DNA of 64,000 nt from Pocillopora verrucosa (taxonomy: Eukaryota > Cnidaria > Anthozoa > Scleractinia > Pocilloporidae). Made by a program: the position numbers and the translations under genes. Shown here in pieces: positions 9,063-60,421 of the stretch; within the stretch, counting starts at the first letter, position 1, and every line of letters starts with the position of its first letter. The stretch is from the NCBI RefSeq assembly GCF_036669915.1, contig NC_089316.1:26463325-26527324 (forward strand), given 5' to 3'. The notes beneath the pieces are model-generated. The model saw only the letters and a program-made list of their open reading frames with translations, was not told the origin of the DNA and made no database searches.

Positions 9063-10891
9063 CTAGGAAAATTGCACCAGCCTCTTCTTTTATTCCTCTC
9101 GCTTAATTCATTTCATGAACGACGGGAAATATTCGAAAAGGTGGTGCACTGCTCGCCATTTTGTGGAATGCGGCTATAGTGGCGTGTATGTGTCATAAAG
9201 TGTACCAGCAGCTGCTTGGTTATTCTTTGTTACAGAATACCTTTCTCCAGGCTGACCTTTCTCACAACTTGCAGTTTTTGCCCCGTGGGGATCCCACGAA
9301 TCTTTGCGCAATCACAAGGCTCTGATTACTGCATGGAGGCTCGTTCTCGATTTACCGTAATGATCCGTGATGATCCTATTTAGCGCACGAGGTGCTTGTT
9401 TACTTTTGTTGCTGCTTCTTCGAAACAGGACGCTTTTTCTTTTTTTGAAAAGCTTTGAAAGCTTTGATTTTTATTTGACTGAGGATCTAAGAGACTGGTC
9501 AAAAGACTTGTTGTACCTGGATCCTTCTGTTAGGAAGTATTTAGTTAGTTTATGATTAGTTAGTCATTTAGTTAGTCAATTCAGGATGAGTTAATCTTTC
9601 GTTTATAGTATGATTGTACCCAGAGGCCTATGCAACGCAGCCGTTTGTTTTTATTTTGTATGAATTCAAATTCCGAAGTTATTTAGGTTTGAGCTGCTGT
9701 GATAAGTTCCCGAATTGTGACAGCCTTGTCTAACTTCCATAGGTGGACGTGTTTAATTTGTTTACTGACCTTGCTTTGGACCCACATGAAAGTTTTTGTT
9801 TTGGCTAACGCAGTGAGAGGTTGATTCAGTTGATTGGAAGCATTATGATGAAGTGCTTTGTTGTTCATTTCGAAAGTCTCATGAAATTGTTTGGTTTGGT
9901 TTTTTAACAACATTGTTTAGCCTTCTAAACCGCAAAAGATTGAAGCGAACTACCTTCCATTCGTTTAATTATTATTTGTCACATTTAATAAGGATCGAAC
10001 GTTGTTTGTCTGAGTCACGAGGGGAACTGAAATTTCATGACGTCATTAGCACTCTTGGCTATTGTCACGATATCTGTGCTGAAGCTCTTTAATCCTCCTT
10101 TAAGCATCAATCTGGCGCCAAATCTATCAGTCAATCATGCCCTCCTAACCCCTTGAACAACAGAAGACGTCCAGCCAAAGGGACTTGACGCCGCATGCTC
10201 TTCACATGCTACGGAATTTTTTGGAGGAGCTACAACTAAATAAGACAGCAAAAATAATTTAATACAGTTTGAGTTCCTATTGTTACTAATCTAAGCAAGT
10301 GTGAACCAGTTCTGTAGACTCGTTTCAAAGCGGGAATTTGACGATTCAAAGTTTTAGCTTAGTGCGGAAATTCTTGCTTCACATTACGTTATCCAACCTT
10401 ACAGAGTCTACAGACTATGTGTTTCTTTCATCACGTCTCCCACTGGCGTTAAAGAAAGAAGTCTTTGACCTGCATCACACCCAGGTGTTTTAGCTTCTAA
10501 GTAAAAAATTCAAATCTCTTTTGAAATGCCACAGAAAAATAGCGATACTTGGTAGCTTAGAATTTACCAGGCTTCAAGCTGGTTAAAAAACAAACATTAA
10601 CACTCCAGGTTTGAGAGCTGAAAATTAAGTGAAGTGCAGTGTGAAAATGAGCAAATGGGGGCGAATGGAGGTCAAGCGCATCTTCCAGCAATAGAATGCA
10701 TCTGTATCCGTCTTAATTTAGTGGTCTGATATCTGTTTCTTATGAAAACAAGTAAATGTTGCATGAGCCATTGCCTTTTTGACAATTGAAGGTTTTCAAA
10801 GAGCCAATCAAAAGAAAGTTCTGTATCTTTTAAAATATTCATTTAAATTGGGGAAAATTAGTATTCAAACGAAACTACAGAATCACTCAAG
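9063..10891. other. Intergenic region between divergent genes
   Basis: This separates the minus-strand transposase-like gene from the plus-strand NACHT gene and so should hold both upstream regions. A minus-strand ATG in good context (CAAAATGGCGAGC, near 9160) could start the left gene, but its frame closes after about 16 codons unless a very short intron is removed. No other gene is seen. Confidence 0.5.
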
Positions 10892-13800
10892 ATGTCAGTG
10901 GAAAAACTGTTAGATTATTTGGAACCAAAAACTTTCGGCAAAGTTCACTATGTTGTAGTGGTTTTTTGGATCGTAATTGGTGTCATCTTCCTTGTTATAT
11001 TCGCCGACATGGAAAACAGCGAACCCAGGCTTGATTTCCACTGTGGTGGAGCGAAAAGTGAACACATCAACCTCGTCCGGGGAAAATGTTACGATAAATA
11101 CCAGGAGCAGTACAACAAATTCGCTTTGCCTGTCTATGGCTTCGTAATCATGAATTTCGCCCTTATTATATTTGTATGTGTTATCTACTCCCAAATAGTA
11201 AAACCAACAGTCAATCGACTATCGCAAAGCATTCGTAACCATCCAGAGAGACAGTCGCGCAACCAAGAGAACGCATTATCAACGGGATACAAGCTTTTTA
11301 TTGCTTATTGCTGTCAACTATCCACAAGACTTGTTTTAGGAGTTGTTTTCATCATCCTACAAACTCAGTTGCTTTATCCTTTAAAGTTTTCCTCTAAGTT
11401 TCACTGTTATTTAACCGATGGAACCACTCAGCCGAGGAATTCATCTGACAACGCCCAACACTCTACTTTACACGACTGTCACAATCAACGAGCGGTAAAG
11501 AAAACCTCCTGGATGGATGCTGTCCTTGTAGTGAATGGAATTTTTGTCGTTGCCATTCTGATTGAAATCGTCTACATTTTTTTAAGGGCATGCAAAGAAA
11601 GGGATTTCATGCAAAACTCAAAGTTCCAAGCATCTCATCTAAATCCTCCGGAAGAATCTCAGCAGCAAGAAGAAAGAATACAACTTGTAATAAACATCAC
11701 ACATGAACCTGTGCAGCAAGAAGAAAGAACACAACTTGTAACAACCATCGCACATGAGCCTCAGCAGCAAGAAGAAATAACACAACTTGTAACAACCATC
11801 GCACATGAGCCTCAGCAGCAAGAAGAAATAACACAACTTGTAACAAACATCGCACATGAACCTCAGCAGCAAGAAGAAATAACACAACTTGTAACAAACA
11901 TCGCACATGAACCTCAGCAGCTAGAAGAAAGAAGAGAACATGGAACAAACATCCCACAAGAAGTTCACCAGGTAGAAGAAAGTAAAGACGATGATACGAA
12001 CATCCCACATCTGCCAAGCGGGCCTGAACAAATCGTAAAATCACCGCTTCAGGAATTCATCCGCAATACAAAGAAAATGATTATAGACGACACTTATCAA
12101 CCTCCACAACTCCGGTCGCTTTTTCCAAGTCCTCCTGGCAAAGGACACCCACCTAAACACTTGACTCTGGATCAAATTTACACAAACCTTGTTGTTGTAC
12201 CTGACATGGCTGAATATGACTTTACTGAAGACAGACGGAATAACTTGCAAATCTACGCCAGGTCGGGTGAGAAAAACGAAACACCGAGAGGGCCAGAGGA
12301 CATTCTTAATCACGAAAACAAAAACATTTTGATCGTCGGTCGTCCCGGAATCGGAAAGACTCTTAGTTGTACAAAAATTCTCAGAGACTGGGCGTCTAAC
12401 AAAGTATTCCATAAAACACCCGATGACAAAATCCACTGTGATGTTGCTTTTTTCGTCAAATTCAGATTATTCAACGCTGCAACCGACCTTAGTCTTAGGG
12501 AGCTAATGACCCGCTCCACATACTCACCCAGGGATGAGCTAGATGAGCAAGTCTGGAATTACATCCTAGAAAACCCGCAGAAAGTTCTCCTTATTTTCGA
12601 TGGACTTGACGAATTTAAATTTAACTCAGAAATCAGCAAGAAAGATAATGAACCTCAATTCAGAAACAAAGTAGACGAGAAGATGCCCCTCTCCGCGCTT
12701 TATGCCAAACTTACGACTGGAAAACTTCTTAATGGAGCAGCCGTTATAACTACTACAAGACCTACAGCTCTTTCATGCATCGAAAGTATTCCTTTTCACA
12801 AAATCTTCGAGATCCTTGGCTTCTCATCCGAACAAGTCGAAGAATACGTAACCAAATTTGCAGAAGAAGACAAGGAAGCAGGCGACACAGTAAAGCGTCA
12901 CATCACCAGCAACATCAATATCTTATCTCTATGTTACATTCCTGCGAGTTGCTTCATCATTTGCTCAAGTCTTTTTAAGATGGTAAAGTTCCATGCTTCT
13001 AAAGGTCTCAACCTACCAACAAGTTTAACAGACATATACGAGAAAGCTGTAAAAATTTTCTACTTGAGACACACCGAAGAATTTCGCGATAAACATTTCA
13101 CTCGCAAAGACTTTGAATCAAATGATTTGCCCCGCGAAGAAGAAAAGAAATTGGAGAAACTAGAAAAATTGGCATTTGAAGGAATTAAAGAAGGAAGGCT
13201 GATCTTTGGAGCAAACGAAGTACGCGGAATGGAAGACAGCGCTCTATTTCACCGCTTACCCGACCGTGAAGTTGACTCGTTTAGTAGCGAAGGACAGTTC
13301 TGTTTTATTCATCTTACAATGCAGGAGTTTTTCGCTGCAAAGCACCTGACAAACAACATGAGTGAAACAGAATTAAGAAACTTTGTTCAGATGAACATCA
13401 AAGAAGGCAAATGGCAGCTGGTTTTTCAGTTTGTAGCAGGATTAATGAAGAATAAAAAAAACCTACCACGCGAAATTATCACAGACCTTCTTCCTGTGAA
13501 AACTGAAGAAAAAGAAGACGCATACCATAACGTACAGTGCACAGAGAATAAAAAGGAAACGAAAGTGACCTGCTGGCCGACTAGAGACAAACGAGATTTA
13601 GCAGTGACATTGATTAAATGTTTCAACGAAAACAGTAGAATGAAGTCAGAAGCACAGAGAAAACTTCAACAAATTAACTTTAATTATGTAAATATTACTC
13701 GTTGTCACCTCACAGCTGTTGATTGCTCTTCGCTAGTAAATGTAATTAATCTTCAACAAATTTCACATTTAGATTTGACTAGCGATAACATTGGTCCATT

Positions 13801-14215
13801 AGGTTGTTTGGAGATTTGTAAATTGTTAAAATGTAGGGAATCTCAACTGAGCTGGTTAAACCTCACATGGAATCAACTGACAGATGAAGCAGCAAAGTAC
13901 TTAGCTGAAGCCATCAACAACAACAACTGTCAGCTACGCACGTTAGACCTCACATCAAATAACATCTCAGACATTGGAGCACAGCACTTGGCTGAAGCCA
14001 TCAACAACAACAACTGTCAGCTACGCACGTTATACCTCACATTAAATAAAATCTCAGACACTGGAGCACAGCACTTGGCTGAAGCCATCAACAACAACAA
14101 CAACTGTCAGCTACGCACGTTATACCTCTCATACAATAACATCACAGAAGCAGGTGAGCAAAAGGCACATAATTTACTAAGCAATATTCAGTCTAAGTGT
14201 AAGCTATATCTTTAG
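10892..14215 (+). CDS. Four-pass connexin/innexin-like channel domain fused to NACHT and leucine-rich repeats
   Basis: One uninterrupted exon encodes 1,107 residues. Residues 1-235 have large-pore-channel topology. A short N-terminus with KLLD and GKV precedes TM1 (about 19-38). Loop 1 carries Cys51 and Cys66 (DFHC ... GKCYDK). TM2 is about 78-103 and TM3 about 133-163. Loop 2 carries Cys172 and Cys196 (HDC, soon followed by KKT). TM4 is about 208-232. The spacing and words recall connexins, although connexins have three cysteines per loop and this has two. Residues 257-375 are a 17-residue repeat linker. The NACHT has Walker A GRPGIGKT (483-490), Walker B LLIFDGLDE (566-574) and TTRP (620-623). 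The winged-helix end has FCFIHLTMQEFFAAKHL (803-819). Four or five ribonuclease-inhibitor-type LRRs fill about 955-1090. NACHT-LRR proteins are oligomerising innate sensors. A membrane-pore N-terminus in place of a death-fold domain is the odd part; its pore function is inference. Confidence 0.9.
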   Translation: MSVEKLLDYLEPKTFGKVHYVVVVFWIVIGVIFLVIFADMENSEPRLDFHCGGAKSEHINLVRGKCYDKYQEQYNKFALPVYGFVIMNFALIIFVCVIYSQIVKPTVNRLSQSIRNHPERQSRNQENALSTGYKLFIAYCCQLSTRLVLGVVFIILQTQLLYPLKFSSKFHCYLTDGTTQPRNSSDNAQHSTLHDCHNQRAVKKTSWMDAVLVVNGIFVVAILIEIVYIFLRACKERDFMQNSKFQASHLNPPEESQQQEERIQLVINITHEPVQQEERTQLVTTIAHEPQQQEEITQLVTTIAHEPQQQEEITQLVTNIAHEPQQQEEITQLVTNIAHEPQQLEERREHGTNIPQEVHQVEESKDDDTNIPHLPSGPEQIVKSPLQEFIRNTKKMIIDDTYQPPQLRSLFPSPPGKGHPPKHLTLDQIYTNLVVVPDMAEYDFTEDRRNNLQIYARSGEKNETPRGPEDILNHENKNILIVGRPGIGKTLSCTKILRDWASNKVFHKTPDDKIHCDVAFFVKFRLFNAATDLSLRELMTRSTYSPRDELDEQVWNYILENPQKVLLIFDGLDEFKFNSEISKKDNEPQFRNKVDEKMPLSALYAKLTTGKLLNGAAVITTTRPTALSCIESIPFHKIFEILGFSSEQVEEYVTKFAEEDKEAGDTVKRHITSNINILSLCYIPASCFIICSSLFKMVKFHASKGLNLPTSLTDIYEKAVKIFYLRHTEEFRDKHFTRKDFESNDLPREEEKKLEKLEKLAFEGIKEGRLIFGANEVRGMEDSALFHRLPDREVDSFSSEGQFCFIHLTMQEFFAAKHLTNNMSETELRNFVQMNIKEGKWQLVFQFVAGLMKNKKNLPREIITDLLPVKTEEKEDAYHNVQCTENKKETKVTCWPTRDKRDLAVTLIKCFNENSRMKSEAQRKLQQINFNYVNITRCHLTAVDCSSLVNVINLQQISHLDLTSDNIGPLGCLEICKLLKCRESQLSWLNLTWNQLTDEAAKYLAEAINNNNCQLRTLDLTSNNISDIGAQHLAEAINNNNCQLRTLYLTLNKISDTGAQHLAEAINNNNNCQLRTLYLSYNNITEAGEQKAHNLLSNIQSKCKLYL
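11660..12016 (+). repeat. Seven 51-bp coding minisatellite units
   Basis: Units begin at 11660, 11711, 11762, 11813, 11864, 11915 and 11966 and encode variants of QQQEEITQLVTNIAHEP. The third to fifth are almost identical, while the outer ones are diverged. The unit is in frame and acidic, and probably forms an extended or helical linker between the membrane part and the NACHT. Confidence 0.95.
13900..14130 (+). repeat. Near-identical 84/87-bp leucine-rich repeat units
   Basis: Successive LRR codon blocks containing AEAINNNNCQLRTL are almost identical at DNA level. The last has one extra AAC codon. This indicates recent unit duplication or gene conversion. Confidence 0.9.
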
Positions 14216-26690: not shown

Positions 26691-28148
26691 TTAAACGTAA
26701 ATCTCAATTCTTTCTCCTTCTCCCAACAGAGTGACTTCAGTGTCTTTCATTTTGCTTTCATCCTCCTGTTTCCCATTGTTTTGCTTTTCCTTCCCTTTCT
26801 GTTTGTTCGCCGGACTACTTCCCTTTAGCTTGTACATCTCCTCAAAGTGTGACAGCAGGACAGGGGTGGGGAAACAAAACAGAACAACTATCCCGGATAC
26901 AGCACAGATGGCTCCAATTAATTTACCCAGAGCACCTTTCGGTACCTTGTCCCCATAACCCACTGCGGTCATGGTGACTATCGTCCACCAAAAGGCGTCT
27001 GGTATACTATCAAAGTCATTGTCTTTCACGTCATTCTCAACATAGTAAATGACGCTGGAGAAGAGGATCACATTAATAATCATAACTGCTAATAGCGACG
27101 GTAGGTCTTTTCCACTCATAACTAATGTTTGAGCGAGAACTTTCAAGCCTTTGCTGTAGCGAGAAAGCTTCAGGACTCGTAACACTCTAATGAGGCGAAT
27201 TATCCTTAAAACCGGAAATGACGTCATCAAGACACCATCCGCTTCGAAGATAAGAGTGATATAAAATGGCAAAATGGCTAAAAAGTCAACTAAACCTAAG
27301 GCGGAAGTCATAAATTTGATTCGATTTGGAGCAGCAATAAGTCGCAAAACATATTCAAACGTAAACCATGCTACGTAGACAGTCTCGATCGTTGACCAAT
27401 AGGTACCACGTTCTATAACAGTACAGTGTGTCTCTGTCAGGTTGATGTGATTATCGCCCAGCGAAGTGTTGTAGAGGTCACGTGTCAATATATGACCGTT
27501 GGTATTGTTGTGTAAGGAGCTCGAAGTGACATCACGACAAACAGTGCGCCGATTAAACCTCGGGATAGTCTCAATACAAAATGTTATCGTTGATAATATT
27601 ATCACAAGTAAACTGAATTTTGCCAGCAAATCCGCCCAAATGGAGGTGTGAGGGTATTCTAGAAGCCTCCAAATTTTTCGCTGAATCGGATGTTCGGGCA
27701 TCTCCTCTTCAACATCTTTCACCTTCTCAGGTTCAATTTCCTGCTTGTACCTCAAGTCCGCTTCATGAAGCTGGAAAAATTTTATTTCCTCTAAAAAACT
27801 TTCCCGTGGAACGTGCTCGGGACATGATAAAATTCCGCAGGATTGATAGAAAAACAGTATGGCATCAAACACAACTTTATCACGATCAAAACAGTATTCC
27901 TTGCTCAGAGTGTTGTAATATTCCCTCCGCTTGCTTGGCGAACCGAGCAATGTTTGAGGGTACTGGGCCAGAGTTTGTTCATAGGTTTCGAAAACAAGTC
28001 CCCGGACGTTGATGCGAATTCTTATTCCTGTATCCGCTGTTGTGACTGATTGCGGGCCATAGGGTTCCAACAAACTTTCACATCTGACATAGCGGTCTCC
28101 ATCATAACCGGAAGCTCGTGACGATGCGGCCACTGAGAGCGCATGCAT
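26691..28148 (-). CDS. Shaker-type (Kv1) voltage-gated potassium channel, intronless
   Basis: A single 485-residue frame. The T1 tetramerisation domain is at about 42-135 (INVRGLVFETYEQTL, FDRDKVVFDAIL). S1 is about 173-193 and S2 250-272. S3 is 283-301. S4 is 311-334 with regularly spaced charges (RIIRLIRVLRVLKLSRYSKG). S5 is about 350-370, the selectivity filter TMTAVGYGD is 392-400, and S6 is 407-433. Three N-glycosylation sequons (N214, N227, N236) lie in the long S1-S2 loop. The protein forms a tetrameric plasma-membrane channel that repolarises excitable cells. The S6 bend is PTP (427-429) where Shaker channels usually have PVP. The C-terminus EIYV could bind a PDZ domain. Cnidarians have many Kv1 genes, often intronless, so no paralogue is assigned. 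Confidence 0.95.
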   Translation of the reverse strand: MHALSVAASSRASGYDGDRYVRCESLLEPYGPQSVTTADTGIRIRINVRGLVFETYEQTLAQYPQTLLGSPSKRREYYNTLSKEYCFDRDKVVFDAILFFYQSCGILSCPEHVPRESFLEEIKFFQLHEADLRYKQEIEPEKVKDVEEEMPEHPIQRKIWRLLEYPHTSIWADLLAKFSLLVIILSTITFCIETIPRFNRRTVCRDVTSSSLHNNTNGHILTRDLYNTSLGDNHINLTETHCTVIERGTYWSTIETVYVAWFTFEYVLRLIAAPNRIKFMTSALGLVDFLAILPFYITLIFEADGVLMTSFPVLRIIRLIRVLRVLKLSRYSKGLKVLAQTLVMSGKDLPSLLAVMIINVILFSSVIYYVENDVKDNDFDSIPDAFWWTIVTMTAVGYGDKVPKGALGKLIGAICAVSGIVVLFCFPTPVLLSHFEEMYKLKGSSPANKQKGKEKQNNGKQEDESKMKDTEVTLLGEGERIEIYV

Positions 28149-31100
28149 TACTGTGGGTTAATTTACGACCAGTCTATAACGACAAATCACGAGAAAAAGA
28201 AAAGTTACTTTTTACCAGCCCTACAGGTATAACTAATCAATCCTTTAAATTCATAAGTTGAACATGAAACTAGGTTTGAAATGCGCACAAGTGATTACTG
28301 CAGCTCTCTCCTTCCAAGATCTTCATGCATCTCTTCCCGCGCGCATTTTAGTGAGGAGACGAGAGGTAACTGATGACCGCTGTTTAACGACTGAATCAAA
28401 ATAAAGATTGAAAGTAGTTTTTGTAACTCGTTTTATTTCCAGTAATTTACCATCTGCGAAACAACGTTCATCTTTGTCCTTTCCAGCCTTAAGACTTTCA
28501 CTCCTCATGTTATCAGGATCTCATACAAATCCTAGTTAGCAGGTAGCAATTCTTTAAAGCAACTAATTTACTTGCGCTAGAGGTTCAATTTAGTTTAAAA
28601 ATCATCCCACATTATAGAGGCGATAAGATCTTGATGAAAACATACAACAATCAATTTGATCTTTAAATTGTCATTCCTCTCTGTTCGAATAATTTTTCGT
28701 TTATCTAATCATCAAGATTTGACTTTAAGTGTCGTAACATGAAGTGAACTGAGCACCACTGACCGGTAACCGCGGGAACAGCAAGGGAGGTTGTAATCGT
28801 TTGCTGTTAGGTAAATCAAGAGTTAAAATCTCTTGATGGTAGTTACATAAAATTCTGTTGCATTAACTTGTTTCGTCTTCCTTACTAGTCAGAGATCGGA
28901 ACATAGAGCTTCTCGAAAATTGAAACTAGTTAATTAATTGAGAGGCAGTCTGCATATCAAGAAAGGCTTGATTAAGATGGCGTGGAATTGTCACTGTGGT
29001 ATGGAGCTAATAAGCACTCTGTATTTAATAACATCTTGCTCCTCAAAGAATTGTTTACATAACAAATTTTACGAGTGTACAAGGTTCTAATGTTTTTTTC
29101 GCTAGAAGATGTGAACGAGAATGCTTTGCCGAACGCTGTACCCATGGAATTTTACAATTGGGTAAATTCGCTTAAGCCGGTTTTCATGTCGTTTTTTTTT
29201 GCGTGCGTAAGTTTCATTTACTTGACGCGCGCAAGAATTTTGACACAATGCTTTTTCCTAAGGGGAATTTAATTGATGAACACGCGAACTGTCTTTTCAT
29301 TATCTTTTTTTTTTCGCTTTATGCCAGACAAGACATGTATAAATTATAGCCCTCTTTTACCAAACATACTGCAAACTACGCTCTATATGGTATGCGATAG
29401 TTCGCATTTGTGAAAATTGAGTTATTTCCATTATCTGTAAACAATCAAGCTAGATAAGAAATAAGAGTATATTTTTATGCATGGACGTAATGTCATTACG
29501 GAATCCAACCCGCAGGAGTAACGTTGGTATGATTTGTAAATACTGTGATGTTGTTCAGATTACAAGCCAGCGAGGACTCGAAAACGACGTAACTGGCCTT
29601 CGGGTAATCGTGTGAATAAGTGACACAAAGCAGTTTCACCGGCCGGGTGTGCTTGATAAGTTTCTTGAGTGAAAAAGAAAGTCGAAAGCTTAAGGCAACA
29701 GCTACAGGATGGTGAGATTAGATCTAATCTTTTCAGAACTTCTCACACTTCCAGTTTATTTGTTCACCATAGAATAGAAAGCTTTTTGTTCTCCGGCTGA
29801 AGATCAAGAGATGAAATTATGAAACATGGTCTGTAGCTGAACTGAACTCCAAGGCTGTCCCGCATAAGTGAGCCAGAGGCAATTACAACAGATGCTGGAG
29901 TTGAATAATTTGTGCTTACCTTTGAGTGCGTGAAGCACAGATGAACGAATTTTTATCGTCTTTGTGTTTTGAATAGTGGTTGGGAAACTTTATTGTCGTC
30001 GCTTCATATTTTTGAGCCCACGCGAGGAGGAGATTCGCAGCTCTGGATGCGAAAACACGCCCATCGGATGAGCCGACTTCGAAAGACTTATCTGCAATAA
30101 AATTGAGAAGAGGGTGTCGGTAAGAAAGAAAAACAGCAAGAAAACGAGAAACAATAACCACAGACGAGTTGAGAATTTCGAAGGTTCAAAAGCTAGTCTC
30201 GCATTGGGTGACTTAGGCGAAACCAAAACTCAATTCTTTTCAGAAAGCACATTACACTTACACCGACAAGTGAGAGATACTCACGAAGCTTTTGTAAGTC
30301 ACTAAAACGCGTCTTACTTGTTGTCATCTGAATAAATCAGGTCTTGTATAGTGTTCTATCCTGCTGCGAAAAATTTTAACCACATCAAGGCTCAACCGCG
30401 AATTTTTTTTTATGGCACGTACAGTTTTAAAAGACCAGCGCGGAGAAGCAAGGTAAAAGACTTCCTCACACAGTTTGAAGAAGTGGAGCTACCCACCGTA
30501 CATTTGTGGGCGGATTTGATGCTTATCTTGAAGAAATAAAGACTGGAAAAATCCAGAAAAGTAGATCTTGCTACAATACCGGTCGTTTTCTTTGGAGAGC
30601 AAAGTAATTAATATTTAATGCATAAATTTTTAACACAGAAAAGAAACAAAGAGAAAATAAAATAAATATCTTAAAAAGTTATGGGAATATAGACTTTGTT
30701 ATCAATAAATTTGCTGTGACACAGGCGACAGGCTAAGAAAAAATATACCAACAACATTAAAATTATATGGAATAGGCGTTGCTTTGGGGTTTGTCTCGAG
30801 ATTTTATGTAAACATACCCTCATTTGGAATTGTCTTTAAATCAAGATCATTGTTAAATTCTGTCCTAATAAAAAATTTACGAAGCGATCATCAATTCGCC
30901 TGAGCGAAATTAAAACAAAAAAACTGTTTCATTCTCGAGTGAGGGGCTAAATGCTAACCACGGGTACTAATATGTAACACAACTGGAAAATTAAATGCAA
31001 AAAAAATTGATCAAATAATGAGACAATTTTCAGGAGTATCTCTCAATGTTGTCGATCAATCCATGGTGTTGCATATGAATGTTGTATACATTTTTCTGGA

Positions 31101-36024: not shown

Positions 36025-39000
36025 CTATTCATTCAGCGAAGACTTACCATTGAAAACAATGTCTGCCTCCGGTACATTTAAGTCAAAAGACTTTGATCTT
36101 GAGCGCAGTCTGGAATTGCTCCTGATATTCTTCTCGGGTTTGAATAACACAATGTAGACTTTTGGCAAGAAGATAAAGATTAAGATTGTTGTAGCGCTGA
36201 TAACAGAGCTGAAAGCCAGCGCAATGGCTTGGAATCCTCCTCCTATTCCATAATACACCGGGACGAAAGCGATCCATATCACGCATGTTGTGTACATGCA
36301 GAAACCAATAAATTTAGCCTCGTTAAAATTCAACGGGGTTTTACGAGTTCTGAACGCGTAATATGTGCAAAATATTATAAGGACGGCATTGTAGCCGAAC
36401 AAGCTTACCATTCCAACAGTACTTATGTTACATTTGATAAGTACAAAGTCTTTTTGCTCGTATGATGCAATGGCCTTCGGCGGTCGAATCAAGAGCTCTG
36501 TGATGGCCATGGCGAGCTCCGGAGCAATTATAACGGCAGTTATGAGAAGTTGAGACTTTGGGCTAATGAAAGAAGGTGATTTTATCCCGCTGAAAATGCG
36601 CGCAATTCTATTCGTGCGCACTAATAAGGAAGAATAACACACACAGAAACACAAACCAATTCCAAATCTTTGAATCGCGCAGACAACTTTGCCTGGATTC
36701 GAAACCATCACGAAAGCAAAACTGTAGCAGAGTAGTATTCCAGCAAGAAGGATAATGGATAATTCGTGTCCTGAAGCTTTTATGAGCGGTGTTTGAGCGA
36801 ATTTAACAAACACAACACAAACAGTGACAGTGGCAAGAATTCCTAGAGACGCAAATACGCCAACTACAACGATCCACACTTTGTTGAGATATACTTCATG
36901 TAAAGGTTCGCAGCCGTCGAACGTAGCATTTGGCCTAGTTCCCTTGTCACAAGTCTTGCACGTGAAGTCATTTTCAACGTAAGAGTCTGCGTCACAGTCT
37001 TCGCATGTCCAGCAGCAGACCGTATCGCGTATGCGCCTTATAGCGTGGGGTCCACAAGGCTTTCCACAATGTGATTCAAGGTAGTTATTTGCTCTGTAAA
37101 GTGCGTGAGAGTCCATCGTCAATTTTCCTTCGACCCAGCTTCCCAGTTTCGTATAGGAAGCACTGTAAGAGTTTCTAAATGCGTAGAAGTCGTACTTTCC
37201 AGCACTGTCGCCGTTGGCATCGAATTTCACCAGCCCAGTTGTGCCATTAAAAGACACGTTCCGCAAATACCACAATAGCACAGAGCGATCCAATTTCTTC
37301 ATGGCCGAGCAGAGGCCTGGTACTGGGCCGCAGATGTTTCGGTGCATCGCATGAAGCGCGTGCGCAAATGAAAACACCGCATCGATGACAAAAGGAACTT
37401 TAGCATCGAATCTGTCCAGAACTGAAAAACGATTCTCTGGGAAAAGACAACGAGGATTTCCTGACAATGGGCCTTTTCCAAATTTGCAATTGAAACGCTT
37501 CTCCCAGTATTCTTTAAACCAAGGGTTTCTTGAGTTGTTCAGTGGATTCAGCTTCGAAAAATAATTGTAAAATGGCTTTAATTGCGTTTCAAACGTTTGA
37601 AATTCGATGGTAATGGCGCCATCAGCGACATCTTCCAAACCTTCAACATGACGAAGTCTTGTCCCCCAAAAATCACTTGCAAGCCAGATAAATCGCTTCT
37701 TCTCGCCTCGATTCTGCGCTCTTTTAGCGGCTTGGAGCATTGAACGAAGATCTTCAGCATTGCAAAACATCACAACTACACGAATATCCTTCTCTGTAAG
37801 AAATCGTTCTATGATCTGGTCATATTCTTCCTCAGTAAAATCTGGTTCTAATTGCCGATGGTCAGCAATACAAACGTTGCTCATAACCGAGAATTTTTCC
37901 AAGATCTCCATTCCCTGTTCACCATAGCTGCCGCGCGAATGAACCGCGAAGACCGCTGACCAGTTCATGAATGTAATGATGTCTATCATGGCTCGCGCTT
38001 GATATGAGTCCGGGGGGACAGTTCGCACGAAGTATTCAAACCTGTCCTTGTCGCTCAACTCAGCGCTTGTTGCAGCATAGCTGACTTGCGGGACTTCAAA
38101 CAGACGAAGGAGGCTGGCCACCTATAATGCAAATGATACCACTGTTATAACCTAAGTGTTGTCACAATATGATTATTAAAATCGTAGAGACACCACTCAT
38201 AACCCAGATAGGGGCTGTAAACTTCCCCAAACAGTCGTGTTACCTGTACTGTAGTAATGCTGTACGATGGCCCCACTACCCCCACCAGCGCAGATTTTTT
38301 CTTCACCTCAGGGGTCCCTACCAGGGAACTGCATATTTCTTCCCTCTTGGTCAGTGTACCAAGCACAAAATTCAGGCACTGTTCTAAAGCAGTGTTTACT
38401 GTTCCACAGTCGTCGCGAATTTCCATGCCCAGGGTTATGTTTGGGAGAAGAGTGCTGTTTTTGTTCACCTTGAAGAGAAAAGAAAAGTGTTGTTTTCAAT
38501 ACAGTAGGATGCAAGTTTTAAATATAGAAAGTGTTGATTGCAATGTACGTCATGTTTAGTTTGCCCTACCCACGCGGTACTGGGTTTAGTTTGCTTATTA
38601 TGGTCTAGACCATATGCTCGAGTTCGTTGTTTTCGCGTTTCGCTTATGTCACGTTTTTCCTTCAGGCTCATAAATCTTCTAAGCAGTTTTTCGTTTCGTA
38701 TTCGTTTCGTTGAGTTTCCTTAATTTGAGTGTTATTGTTTCCCTTTTTCTTTTACTCAAACCATATCTTACGAGTCATATAATAAAGATTACACGCATTG
38801 ACAGATCAAGTCGAATATTTATTTACTGAAAGTTTGAGCTCAGTAATAGGAAAACGTAGACTACAGTGTCAGGAAATCAGAACTCAAAAATACATCACGT
38901 GATCAGCGCTTGGCGCCAAAGGCGGGAAAGCAAGCGAGACCAAGTCGACAATGTCCAAACACTTGACGATTCCTCAAGAGGAACTAATTTTTGGAAACCT

Positions 39001-57506: not shown

Positions 57507-60421
57507 ATGAGAAGACGCAGACCCAATCAGTTATCCATTAAACCAGCGAAAGCTTATATCCTCGGGAAGGCTGGAGTTGGCAAATCGGGTAAGTTAAGAC
57601 CGATGATGAAATCTCGTAAGCACAATAAATTATTATTGCACCTTGGAGCTGTTCTATTGTTAAGAGATAACAAGAGTGCTAATTACCTCCGTATCTAAGT
57701 GTTTGTTCCGTTGTGATTGATTTGCAGTGAAGATCCAAACTACTTGATTTTCAGAGTTGACAGTACTTCTTTTAGTGCAATACCTCCATACAAAACCTTG
57801 CAAAGATTAAAAGTCGCTTCAAAACCACTCAAGTATTTCGATGCTGAGACTGAGGTCAGATACATGGAAAAACTGTGCGTTGTTTAAATGCCAAAATTGA
57901 GTCTGTGTGGTTTGAAAAAATGTGTTTCGAAGCAGATGGAGTTTTATCTTTCGATCGTTGTAGAAATCTGTCATTCTCAGTTCCTGTTGGACAAAAGTTC
58001 AGTCAAGTTATTTTATCAAATGACATTTGACACACTCTCTCTTTAGAAATGATCGTCTTTGTTTAATCACAACACATGATTGATTCTTTCGATCAAAGTC
58101 GAGTAGATTAAATTGAGTCCTCCATTATCAAACGCAGCTTCTCGATTGTTCTTCGAAGTGTTGCCTCGTAACGTTGAGTCATCACAATATTCATGTGCCT
58201 TCAAACAAGCTTGTATTAATTATAGAGGTTTATAGAGGCTATTTTGCGGGCTACAGATAAATTAATTTATTTCTCAAGGCGCATAAATCTGTTTTCAACA
58301 AAATCATTCACTCAATTATTTTCTGTTTCGATCTGTCGATCAAAAGTGTGAGAGGTCTTTAAAAAATATCTTTCCTCTGCTACTTTCACACCACAAAAAT
58401 TATTCGCCCAATTTTCAAGCGCTTGAAATTTTAGCTCCTTTCCCTCCATACGCATGCTCTTCCGGTGATTCTGATCTTAAACTCTCTGCCGAGTCACGGA
58501 TATGGGAAATTATTGTTACTAGTTTAAATCTGAAGAGACTGTTTTTTTAATCAAATAAACTACATTTTTTATAAGTAGGATGTTTGCAATGTATAAGAAT
58601 TTTTTTTAATGTATTCAATGACAACTTTCTGTATACAACAACTTTACGTATACAATTATTCACTAACCAGTTTAACTGATTTTTCCTCTAGCCCTGATTG
58701 TGAGGTTTATGACCAGGCGGTTTATTGGAGAATATGCCCGAGCGATAGGTAAGTGGATAATTTATATAAACAAGGGAATAGCCGGATTAGAATACTTATT
58801 CGTAAGAAGGCTTGTTTACTCGCACCAGTCTCTTTGCCGCTATTATTGCGCCGTTTACTATTTCCGCGCCGCGCCTCACTAACTGAACGCTGGGAACTAG
58901 CTAAGACATTGGATTTTATCTTACTTAGAGTAAAGAAGTTACGTCAAAATCGAATTATCGCCGGCAGGTCGCAATCGTATTAGCAACTTATTGACAATAA
59001 TTGATGTTTATAATGTTCTTTTTTCAGAGGGAACCTACAGGCATCATGTTGAAACAGACAATGAAGAAGTAGAGTTGGAGATCGCGGATACTGCAGGAGA
59101 GGTACGTTGTCATATTCATTTGTGTTTTAGATACATTTAAGTGCATTTGAACTAGTTTTAATAGAAATATTGAGTTACCAGTCATAGGCTGAATGATCAG
59201 CCGCCGGTCAGAAAATGAGCCCACGCTTCTCTCTCAAACGAGGTTCGAAGACTGAACTCGACAAAACGTCGGAAATCTGGGCAACTCGAGTCAGCGAAAA
59301 GGGCAAAAATGAAAAGCTTTATAATAGCAATGCAAGTTACGACAGTAAGTTTTTGTGAAGCTAACCCTGTACTTTTCTGCTTTCAGAACACGGCTGAGAA
59401 GCTAACTCTCATTTCTCGTCAAGGCGACATTTTCATCATTTTGTATTCCATCACCGATCGTTCCAGTTTTGAAGAAGCAAAGCGCATTGCTCGTTTCATA
59501 AAGGACAGTACCGCAGATTCTGTTGCCATAGCAATCGTGGCCAACAAGTGTGATCTCGAACATTTTCGGCGAGTTAAATATGAAGAGGGGAAAAGTCTGT
59601 CGATGGAACTGAATTGCGCTTTTCATGAAGTTACTACATCAGAAGACAATAAGCAGGCCAGAGAAGTTGTACAGAAGTCAGTGTCAAGTTTTATTCGAAG
59701 TCGTGAAAAAGTGAAAGATTCTGGAAATTTGAAAGTGCCTTCATTTGTAAAAAGGACTCCTTCGTTCGAGAAGAGCGAGAAAAAGAAGAGGTTAGGACGT
59801 TTTTCTCAAGACAGTTCCAAGACACTGTCCCGACCGTTTGAATTTCATACACGAATGAGGCGGATTGAAGAGGGAGATGGTGAGGATTACAAAGTAAACA
59901 ACAACAACAACAACAACAACAATAACAATCGTACATTCAATGCGTTTGATGGTAAAAATAATGACGGTGGGAATAAAAAGGATGCACTGTCCGGTGAAGC
60001 CAAAAACCGCACTCAAGGACCGTTTCACGTGGAAAAGGTGAAGAGCGTAACTTCTAAGAAGCTTCACTCACACACCGAAAAGACGGATGATTCGTTCAAC
60101 GAAGACAAACCTAAAGTACCTTTTACTGTTCATAAAGTTAAAGGTTCCTCCGCTGGAGAATTGAAGCGGCCTCTTCCTGCCGATAAATTACGATCTCGCT
60201 CATCGTATAATTGGACTGAAAATTCGGTTTCCGAAGAGAAGCCGAAGCAATCTTCGAGAGGACCATTTTCATTGGACAGACTTCGGAGTCAGTCGACTGA
60301 AAAGCTTCGGGCGTCTTCGTCGAGTGATCGGCCGAAGTCCAGTACTTCTTCGTTCACTCGTATGAAAGATGGACTGATGGGCAGAACGAAGGCCTTACGA
60401 AGAAAACCCATCTATCTATGA
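57507..60421 (+). CDS. RERG/RASL11-like Ras-family GTPase with long C-terminal tail
   Basis: Four coding exons, 57507-57588, 58692-58748, 59028-59101 and 59387-60421, join in phase to 415 residues. The P-loop is GKAGVGKS (20-27), followed by ALIVRFMTRRFIGEY, typical of the RERG and RASL11 branches. G3 is DTAGE (67-71) and G4 is NKCD (124-127). Mapped on Ras, position 12 is Ala, Thr35 is Ala45 and Gln61 is Glu71, so switch I lacks its magnesium-binding threonine and switch II is two residues short. Nucleotide binding is likely; normal hydrolysis and switching are doubtful. After the G domain (to about 175) comes a basic, Ser-rich tail of about 240 residues with an Asn run from AAC repeats. Three spaced units of the form PF-x3-K/R-x-K/R are seen (PFHVEKVK, PFTVHKVK, PFSLDRLR). 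There is no CAAX box, so any membrane contact would be through basic residues. Confidence 0.9.
59899..59930 (+). repeat. Coding (AAC)n tract
   Basis: A run of AAC/AAT codons gives eleven consecutive Asn residues in the tail of the GTPase. Confidence 0.9.

Follow-up and report, generated by a model that had tools for sequence, protein, structure and literature searches.

The locus described here raises the question of whether a receptor of the NLR family can carry its own membrane pore within the same polypeptide, and whether such a pore can be related to connexins in an animal that is not a chordate. The window analysed is a stretch of 64,000 nucleotides of the coral Pocillopora verrucosa (contig NC_089316.1, positions 26,463,325 to 26,527,324), part of a 353-Mb genome in 52 contigs, which are also the space covered by the genome-wide searches reported below. 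On its plus strand, positions 10892-14215 hold a single uninterrupted frame of 1107 residues, composed of a membrane domain with four helices (residues 1-235), a repeat-rich linker, a NACHT domain and leucine-rich repeats (LRRs). The membrane domain is a homologue of connexins, and the connexin-NACHT-LRR genes form a large conserved family in this genome. We consider it fairly probable that the protein is a membrane-anchored NLR whose activation would assemble or gate its own connexin-type hemichannel, by means of this N-terminal four-pass effector.

An NLR with a membrane domain in the same frame

A preliminary description of this DNA, made from the sequence letters, had proposed a pore module joined to NACHT and LRRs in one frame, and the Pfam matches to Connexin (below the curated cut-off), NACHT and LRR_6 along the 1107-residue open frame bear this out. 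The short connexin-like words on which it had relied (KLLD, GKV, DFHC, CYDK, and DC followed by KKT) are all present in the translation. The coding frame is laid out as follows.

10859..10861, plus strand: in-frame stop, 10 codons 5' of the ATG; the frame opens at 10862
10892..14215, plus strand: whole coding frame (connexin-like domain, linker, NACHT, LRR), 1107 residues
11597..12166, plus strand: linker, residues 236-425, presumed cytoplasmic, 190 residues in the window copy
11654..11982, plus strand: 51-bp tandem repeat within the linker, 6.5 copies, in frame (17-residue unit)
12326..12868, plus strand: NACHT domain, residues 479-659 (Pfam, expectation value (E) 8.3e-29)
12338..12361, plus strand: Walker A motif GRPGIGKT, residues 483-490
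12596..12613, plus strand: Walker B motif FDGLDE, residues 569-574
13310..13633, plus strand: NLRC4 HD2-like helical region, residues 807-914 (Pfam, below the curated cut-off)
13843..14148, plus strand: LRR repeats in units of 87-90 nucleotides (Pfam LRR_6, E 4.2e-14)

The two features by which an NLR is recognised, a NACHT domain with Walker A and B motifs and C-terminal LRRs, are thus both found in the window protein. When the whole protein was compared with the PDB by phmmer, 76 matches were obtained at E<=0.1, the best being NLRP3 (4.2e-32), and the best 60 of the 76 were NLRs and proteins aligning to the NACHT-LRR part, mostly LRR proteins. The NACHT domain with its Walker motifs, the HD2-like region and LRR_6 are shared with animal NLRs (NLRP3, other NLRPs and cnidarian NLRs). 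These receptors, however, carry an N-terminal death-fold, TIR or HEPN effector, whose place is taken here by the four-pass membrane domain. The Pfam matches listed for the window protein include no death fold, TIR or HEPN, and neither do the 25 of 50 Pfam families listed for the membrane domains of 29 representative copies of the family.

Relationship of the membrane domain to connexins

The relationship with connexins is seen in several kinds of sequence comparison. In the window protein, Pfam Connexin (PF00029) matches residues 28-230 over positions 29-224 of the 225-position profile (E 2.1e-4, 21.6 bits), the score rising to 24.2 bits when the domain is taken alone. The 29 representative copies, whose identity to the window copy ranges from 26 to 86%, match the same model in 25 cases at E<=1 (best 5.1e-10), and the next Pfam family, 7tm_1, gives weak matches in seven of them (best 2.3e-4). 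A search of 177,635 PDB sequences with a profile of the 29 copies returned 35 matches at E<=10, of which 34 were connexins (best 5.8e-6), the sole other one being a galanin receptor (E 0.87). The window domain alone matched connexins in 14 of 14 cases at the same threshold (best 7.8e-4). In profile-profile comparison by hhalign, the 29-copy profile aligned with one built from two connexin pieces, with Prob 97.5, E 7.1e-12 and a score of 80.6, against scores of 12.7 for the reversed target and 16.8 for the best of 30 column shuffles. A profile built from just the six most divergent copies examined still gave Prob 96.5 and E 8.7e-10 (reversed target 0.94). When the 29-copy profile was compared with an innexin frame, a voltage-gated potassium channel (Kv) frame and a class C G protein-coupled receptor (GPCR) frame of the same genome, Prob values were 1.34, 0.15 and 0.13, respectively. 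The match of this profile to the PDB connexins goes beyond the helices, taking in the loops, their cysteines and an SRPTEKT-like stretch. By these comparisons, the resemblance to connexins exceeds chance.

The fold predicted for the domain points in the same direction. Models obtained with AlphaFold without templates had a predicted local distance difference test value (pLDDT) of 77.4 and a predicted template modelling score (pTM) of 0.70 for the window copy, and of 76.6 and 0.67 for copy L074, which is 26% identical to it. Foldseek searches of the PDB gave 241 and 209 matches at E<=10, respectively (78 and 49 at E<=0.001), and the best 50 matches of each model were all connexins, with TM-scores by target of 0.52-0.73. 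In both predicted models the connexin fold is recognised by four membrane helices, a helical N-terminus and a beta-paired loop 2. Identity to connexins in the Foldseek and hhalign alignments is only 13-20%, so that the domain is easily missed by BLAST.

The preliminary description had tied its proposal to a match with some channel family and to a fold like that of a four-helix pore protomer. Both are now at hand: the family is Connexin, the PDB matches including no chain of an innexin, of LRRC8 or of CALHM, and the single-chain models of two copies resemble a connexin protomer. The other large-pore families were considered as candidates and set aside. The 29-copy profile matched no innexin or pannexin chain of the PDB at E<=10, and LRRC8 and CALHM were found neither among its 35 PDB sequence matches, nor among the 25 Pfam families listed, nor among the 50 fold matches listed for each model; for LRRC8 and CALHM, which were not searched genome-wide, the rejection applies to these sequence and fold results.

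The models and the alignment of the copies give the following anatomy of the membrane domain.

10940..11017, plus strand: predicted membrane helix 1, residues 17-42 (AlphaFold model)
11018..11131, plus strand: predicted extracellular loop 1, residues 43-80, with invariant C51 and C66 (AlphaFold model, alignment)
11132..11206, plus strand: predicted membrane helix 2, residues 81-105, the helix running on to 116 (AlphaFold model)
11207..11290, plus strand: predicted cytoplasmic loop, residues 106-133, partly of low confidence (AlphaFold model)
11291..11374, plus strand: predicted membrane helix 3, residues 134-161 (AlphaFold model)
11375..11485, plus strand: predicted extracellular loop 2, residues 162-198, with two strands, invariant C172 and C196 and an N-x-S/T sequon (AlphaFold model, alignment)
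11486..11596, plus strand: predicted membrane helix 4, residues 199-235 (AlphaFold model)

Across the 29 representative copies, C51, C66, Y99, F136, Y139, L156, C172, C196, E225 and F245 are invariant. Cysteines and sequons were counted in 53 copies, with loop borders placed by motif for L010 and L051 and by alignment for the remaining ones. The earlier observation of two cysteines per loop, instead of three, holds for loop 1 in 53/53 copies and for loop 2 in 49/53, the other four copies having three in the latter. In the PDB profile alignments, C51 and C66 align with the first and last of the three cysteines in connexin loop 1, and C172 and C196 with the first and last of those in loop 2, the absent cysteine of each loop being the middle one. 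In Cx26 the two middle loop cysteines are bonded to each other, and the coral proteins would therefore lack exactly one disulfide. An N-x-S/T sequon is present in loop 2 of 48/53 copies and in loop 1 of 7/53.

The coral domain has thus in common with chordate connexins (Cx26, Cx32, Cx31.3/GJC3; PF00029) the helix order, the loop 1/loop 2 cysteine frame, the predicted fold and the SRPTEKT-like stretch ahead of helix 4. It differs from them in having two cysteines per loop in most copies, where the chordate proteins have three, and in its loop 2 sequons, its low identity (13-20%), its fusion to NACHT-LRR and its occurrence in a non-chordate genome. Cx23 (GJE1) likewise has four extracellular cysteines and not six, although it is a stand-alone vertebrate connexin, and the likeness concerns cysteine number. 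As the three-cysteine rule is not obeyed, the coral domain is named here a connexin homologue and not a canonical connexin.

A large family maintained by selection

The 250 N-terminal residues of the window protein match 72 places in the genome, mostly clustered and spread over 11 contigs. Fifty-nine of these matches are at least 600 bp long, that is, near full length, and most of them sit in open frames of about 900-1460 residues. The family statistics rest on 53 of the 59: the membrane-domain frame continues into at least part of NACHT in 51 copies, a Connexin match at E<=0.001 is found in 44, and the linker ranges from 55 to 259 residues (51 copies). NACHT and LRRs (LRR_6) are present in all six divergent copies that were covered to their stop; most other frames were covered as far as about 720-754 residues, where the sampled DNA ends, and the LRR count excludes them.

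Few copies depart from this layout. In L051 (contig C7) the membrane domain and NACHT are in different frames, L017 (C9) is split within NACHT, and the frames of L017 and L068, as examined, end inside NACHT. Copy L010 (C1:22326423-22327094, minus strand) is a stand-alone frame of 249 residues that reaches its own stop without a NACHT, and nothing in the 1.4 kb downstream matches the window protein. Its Connexin score, 39.1 bits, is over the curated cut-off, and its matches in the PDB are connexins in 4/4 cases but weak (best E 0.71). L010 may be a channel in its own right or a fusion gene that has been cut short; the family tree does not resolve its position, and it is therefore not put forward as an ancestral connexin.

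When the Connexin model was run over the whole genome, 51 places were matched at E<=1 (best E 3.9e-8; best place 40.6 bits), 47 of them overlapping family matches. Five family copies exceeded the curated cut-off on their own, and one more did so with neighbours summed. The possibility of free-standing connexin genes outside the family was considered and set aside: of the four places outside the family, three that were examined are low-complexity or unrelated DNA, and the fourth, C11:11128738, was not examined.

Selection was assessed from the ratio of nonsynonymous to synonymous substitution (dN/dS) in 51 copies, two short ones having been dropped, with 549 of 1275 pairs (overall dS 0.05-0.8) contributing to means in which the pairs are not independent. 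The mean ratio rises from 0.29 in NACHT through 0.42 in the membrane domain to 0.70 in the linker. Within the membrane domain, the lowest values are those of loop 1 (0.26), helix 3 (0.28) and the N-terminus with helix 1 (0.32), followed by helix 4 (0.42), helix 2 (0.49), loop 2 (0.52) and the cytoplasmic loop (0.57). Membrane-domain and NACHT distances correlate over the 1275 pairs (r 0.88), which together with the low ratios of both halves indicates that they are maintained, and maintained together, under purifying selection.

A genome-wide search for NACHT gave 404 candidates; 94 were scored, and 52 of the scored places lie within 2.5 kb of a family membrane-domain match. The 42 scored places outside the family include clusters on C6 at 2.7-7.5 Mb (26 places) and on C8 at 2.6-3.8 Mb (12 places). 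In five other NLR loci the frame starts only a short way ahead of the NACHT domain, and their N-termini are therefore probably encoded on other exons; one of the five, L084, shows two hydrophobic stretches ahead of NACHT. The genome-wide search for innexin gave one match at E<=0.001 (L086, C11:12871452-12872003, E 2.7e-7; four candidates scored), some 58 kb away from the family copy at C11:12929795.

Also found in the window are a Kv-type channel (26694-28157, minus strand; BTB_2 and Ion_trans), a class C GPCR (36028-38121, minus strand; ANF_receptor and 7tm_3) and a Ras-family frame (59219-60418, plus strand). Elsewhere in the genome, the green fluorescent protein (GFP) family gave 74 matches, with two exon clusters on C1 at 0.67-0.88 Mb and 28.36-28.79 Mb. 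The one GFP-family exon compared with the PDB has coral-type fluorescent proteins as its nearest relatives, among them EosFP, Azami Green and Dronpa, which are anthozoan proteins.

Channel, anchor or junction

How such a protein could work may be outlined from the two families that it joins. In the connexin fold both termini are cytosolic, which should place the NACHT-LRR part inside the cell, suspended on its flexible linker. A ligand or disturbance would be sensed by the LRR/NACHT part, and nucleotide-dependent oligomerisation of NACHT would then gather the N-terminal domains, or twist a preformed ring, with a connexin-type hemichannel being assembled or opened as a result. Ions and small molecules would cross the plasma membrane (Ca2+ inwards; K+ or adenosine triphosphate (ATP) outwards), and this flux would constitute the immune output. 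The membrane domain is likely to have a pore function, and gating of the pore is suggested by the families, because NACHT proteins form rings and connexins form hexameric rings.

Two known systems offer partial parallels. LRRC8 of the volume-regulated anion channel (VRAC) is a large-pore protomer with cytoplasmic LRRs, whose pore is innexin/pannexin-like and which has no NACHT. The coral proteins would share with it the combination of pore protomer and LRRs; no LRRC8 chain appeared among the PDB matches of the 29-copy profile at E<=10. In plants, the CC-NLR (coiled-coil NLR) resistosome is described, in PMC11467418, as an oligomeric NLR forming an apparent cation channel. There, however, it is the alpha-1 helix of the CC domain that enters the membrane, with no four-pass channel domain, and no relation is claimed.

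Several points weigh against a self-gated hemichannel. The variable linker could weaken the mechanical coupling between NACHT and the pore. Both AlphaFold models are of medium confidence and deviate from connexins by a root-mean-square deviation of 5.0-8.7 A; they are single chains, not a hexamer, AlphaFold was trained on connexin structures, and Foldseek scoring draws on sequence too. As to the sequence itself, the window protein scores 21.6 bits with Pfam Connexin, short of the curated cut-off (31.3), and the model finds nothing at E<=1 in four of the 29 representative copies and nothing at E<=0.01 in the divergent copies L069-L074 taken at full length. The Connexin model also matches low-complexity DNA, one such place (C11:11704260) passing the cut-off with neighbours summed.

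The alternative that survives best, albeit an unlikely one, is that the connexin-homologous domain is a mere membrane anchor and oligomerisation scaffold that does not conduct, with NACHT-LRR signalling by recruitment of other proteins. A linker varying from 55 to 259 residues makes tight allosteric gating not obvious, and loop 2 (dN/dS 0.52) is less constrained than loop 1 or helix 3, as this alternative would allow. On the other hand, it is in loop 1 and helix 3 (0.26 and 0.28) that the strongest constraint of the membrane domain is found, and a plain anchor has no obvious need for four cysteines and six other residues that are invariant in 29 copies.

Less probable still is a component of gap junctions, in which NLR-regulated docking channels would close or open cell coupling on infection. 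The connexin homology speaks for it, and the single innexin match of the genome (four candidates scored) leaves room for another junction protein. Against it stand the loop 2 sequons of 48/53 copies, N-glycosylation being described as a bar to gap-junction formation by chordate innexin homologues, although functional junctions are reported for some innexins that carry glycosylation sites, so that sequons do not exclude docking (both in passages of PMC8769644). The coral loops have, in addition, one cysteine fewer each, and according to passages of PMC10598745 mouse Cx23, with four loop cysteines, makes hemichannels and no junction channels, whereas zebrafish Cx23 appears to make junctions too. 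The sequons and the reported effect of glycosylation make us prefer a hemichannel to a junction, though this is no more than a lean.

Convergence of four-pass proteins with disulfide-linked loops, without homology to connexins, is disfavoured by the PDB profile matches and the hhalign controls, and we regard it as very improbable. Such an origin could be argued from the identity of just 13-20%, from the four of 51 Connexin places lying outside the family (three of them, on examination, low-complexity or unrelated DNA) and from the weak 7tm_1 matches in 7/29 members. However, 34 of 35 PDB matches are connexins, in a database that contains many other multi-pass families; the reversed, shuffled and unrelated-membrane controls fail; and the match takes in loops, cysteines and the SRPTEKT-like stretch besides the helices. 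That the single frame is misleading, with the membrane part and NACHT-LRR coming from separate transcripts or most copies being dead, is hardly credible, as the broken frames of L051 and L017 and the early stop of L010 (249 residues, nothing like the window protein in the following 1.4 kb) face an in-frame NACHT in 51/53 copies, open frames of about 900-1460 residues in most of the 59 longer matches and purifying selection on both halves.

The self-gated hemichannel has to be seen against what has been written about connexins and NLRs. Passages of a survey that used BLAST, PMC8769644, state that connexins arose de novo in chordates and that connexin-like proteins are absent from non-chordates, with the exception of one doubtful sea-urchin transcript. 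A second BLAST survey (passages of PMC6391747) likewise places connexins only in chordates, its table giving no connexin for Hydra. The connexin-homologous domain of this coral genome does not respect that restriction. Neither of two surveys of cnidarian and coral NLRs (PMC8260672, PMC10236652) uses the word 'connexin' in its main text. A search by titles and the beginnings of abstracts, with subscription papers and preprints mostly outside its reach, found no report of a connexin-NACHT fusion or of a cnidarian connexin among the papers listed. An NLR with this kind of effector is thus unreported in the searched literature. Such genes may nevertheless already bear a label in protein databases.

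The presence of a connexin-homologous domain in a coral reopens the question of where connexins originated. We see about an even chance that the roughly 60 genes encode one-polypeptide receptor-channels and that connexins are no chordate invention but an older pore family, kept as an NLR effector by one non-chordate lineage. If true, an NLR with a large-pore effector would be an animal counterpart of the plant channel-forming resistosomes, and would link sensing directly to ion flux. With the family expanded beside one detectable innexin match, the idea can be tested in corals and anemones, animals in which NLRs may control symbionts and pathogens.

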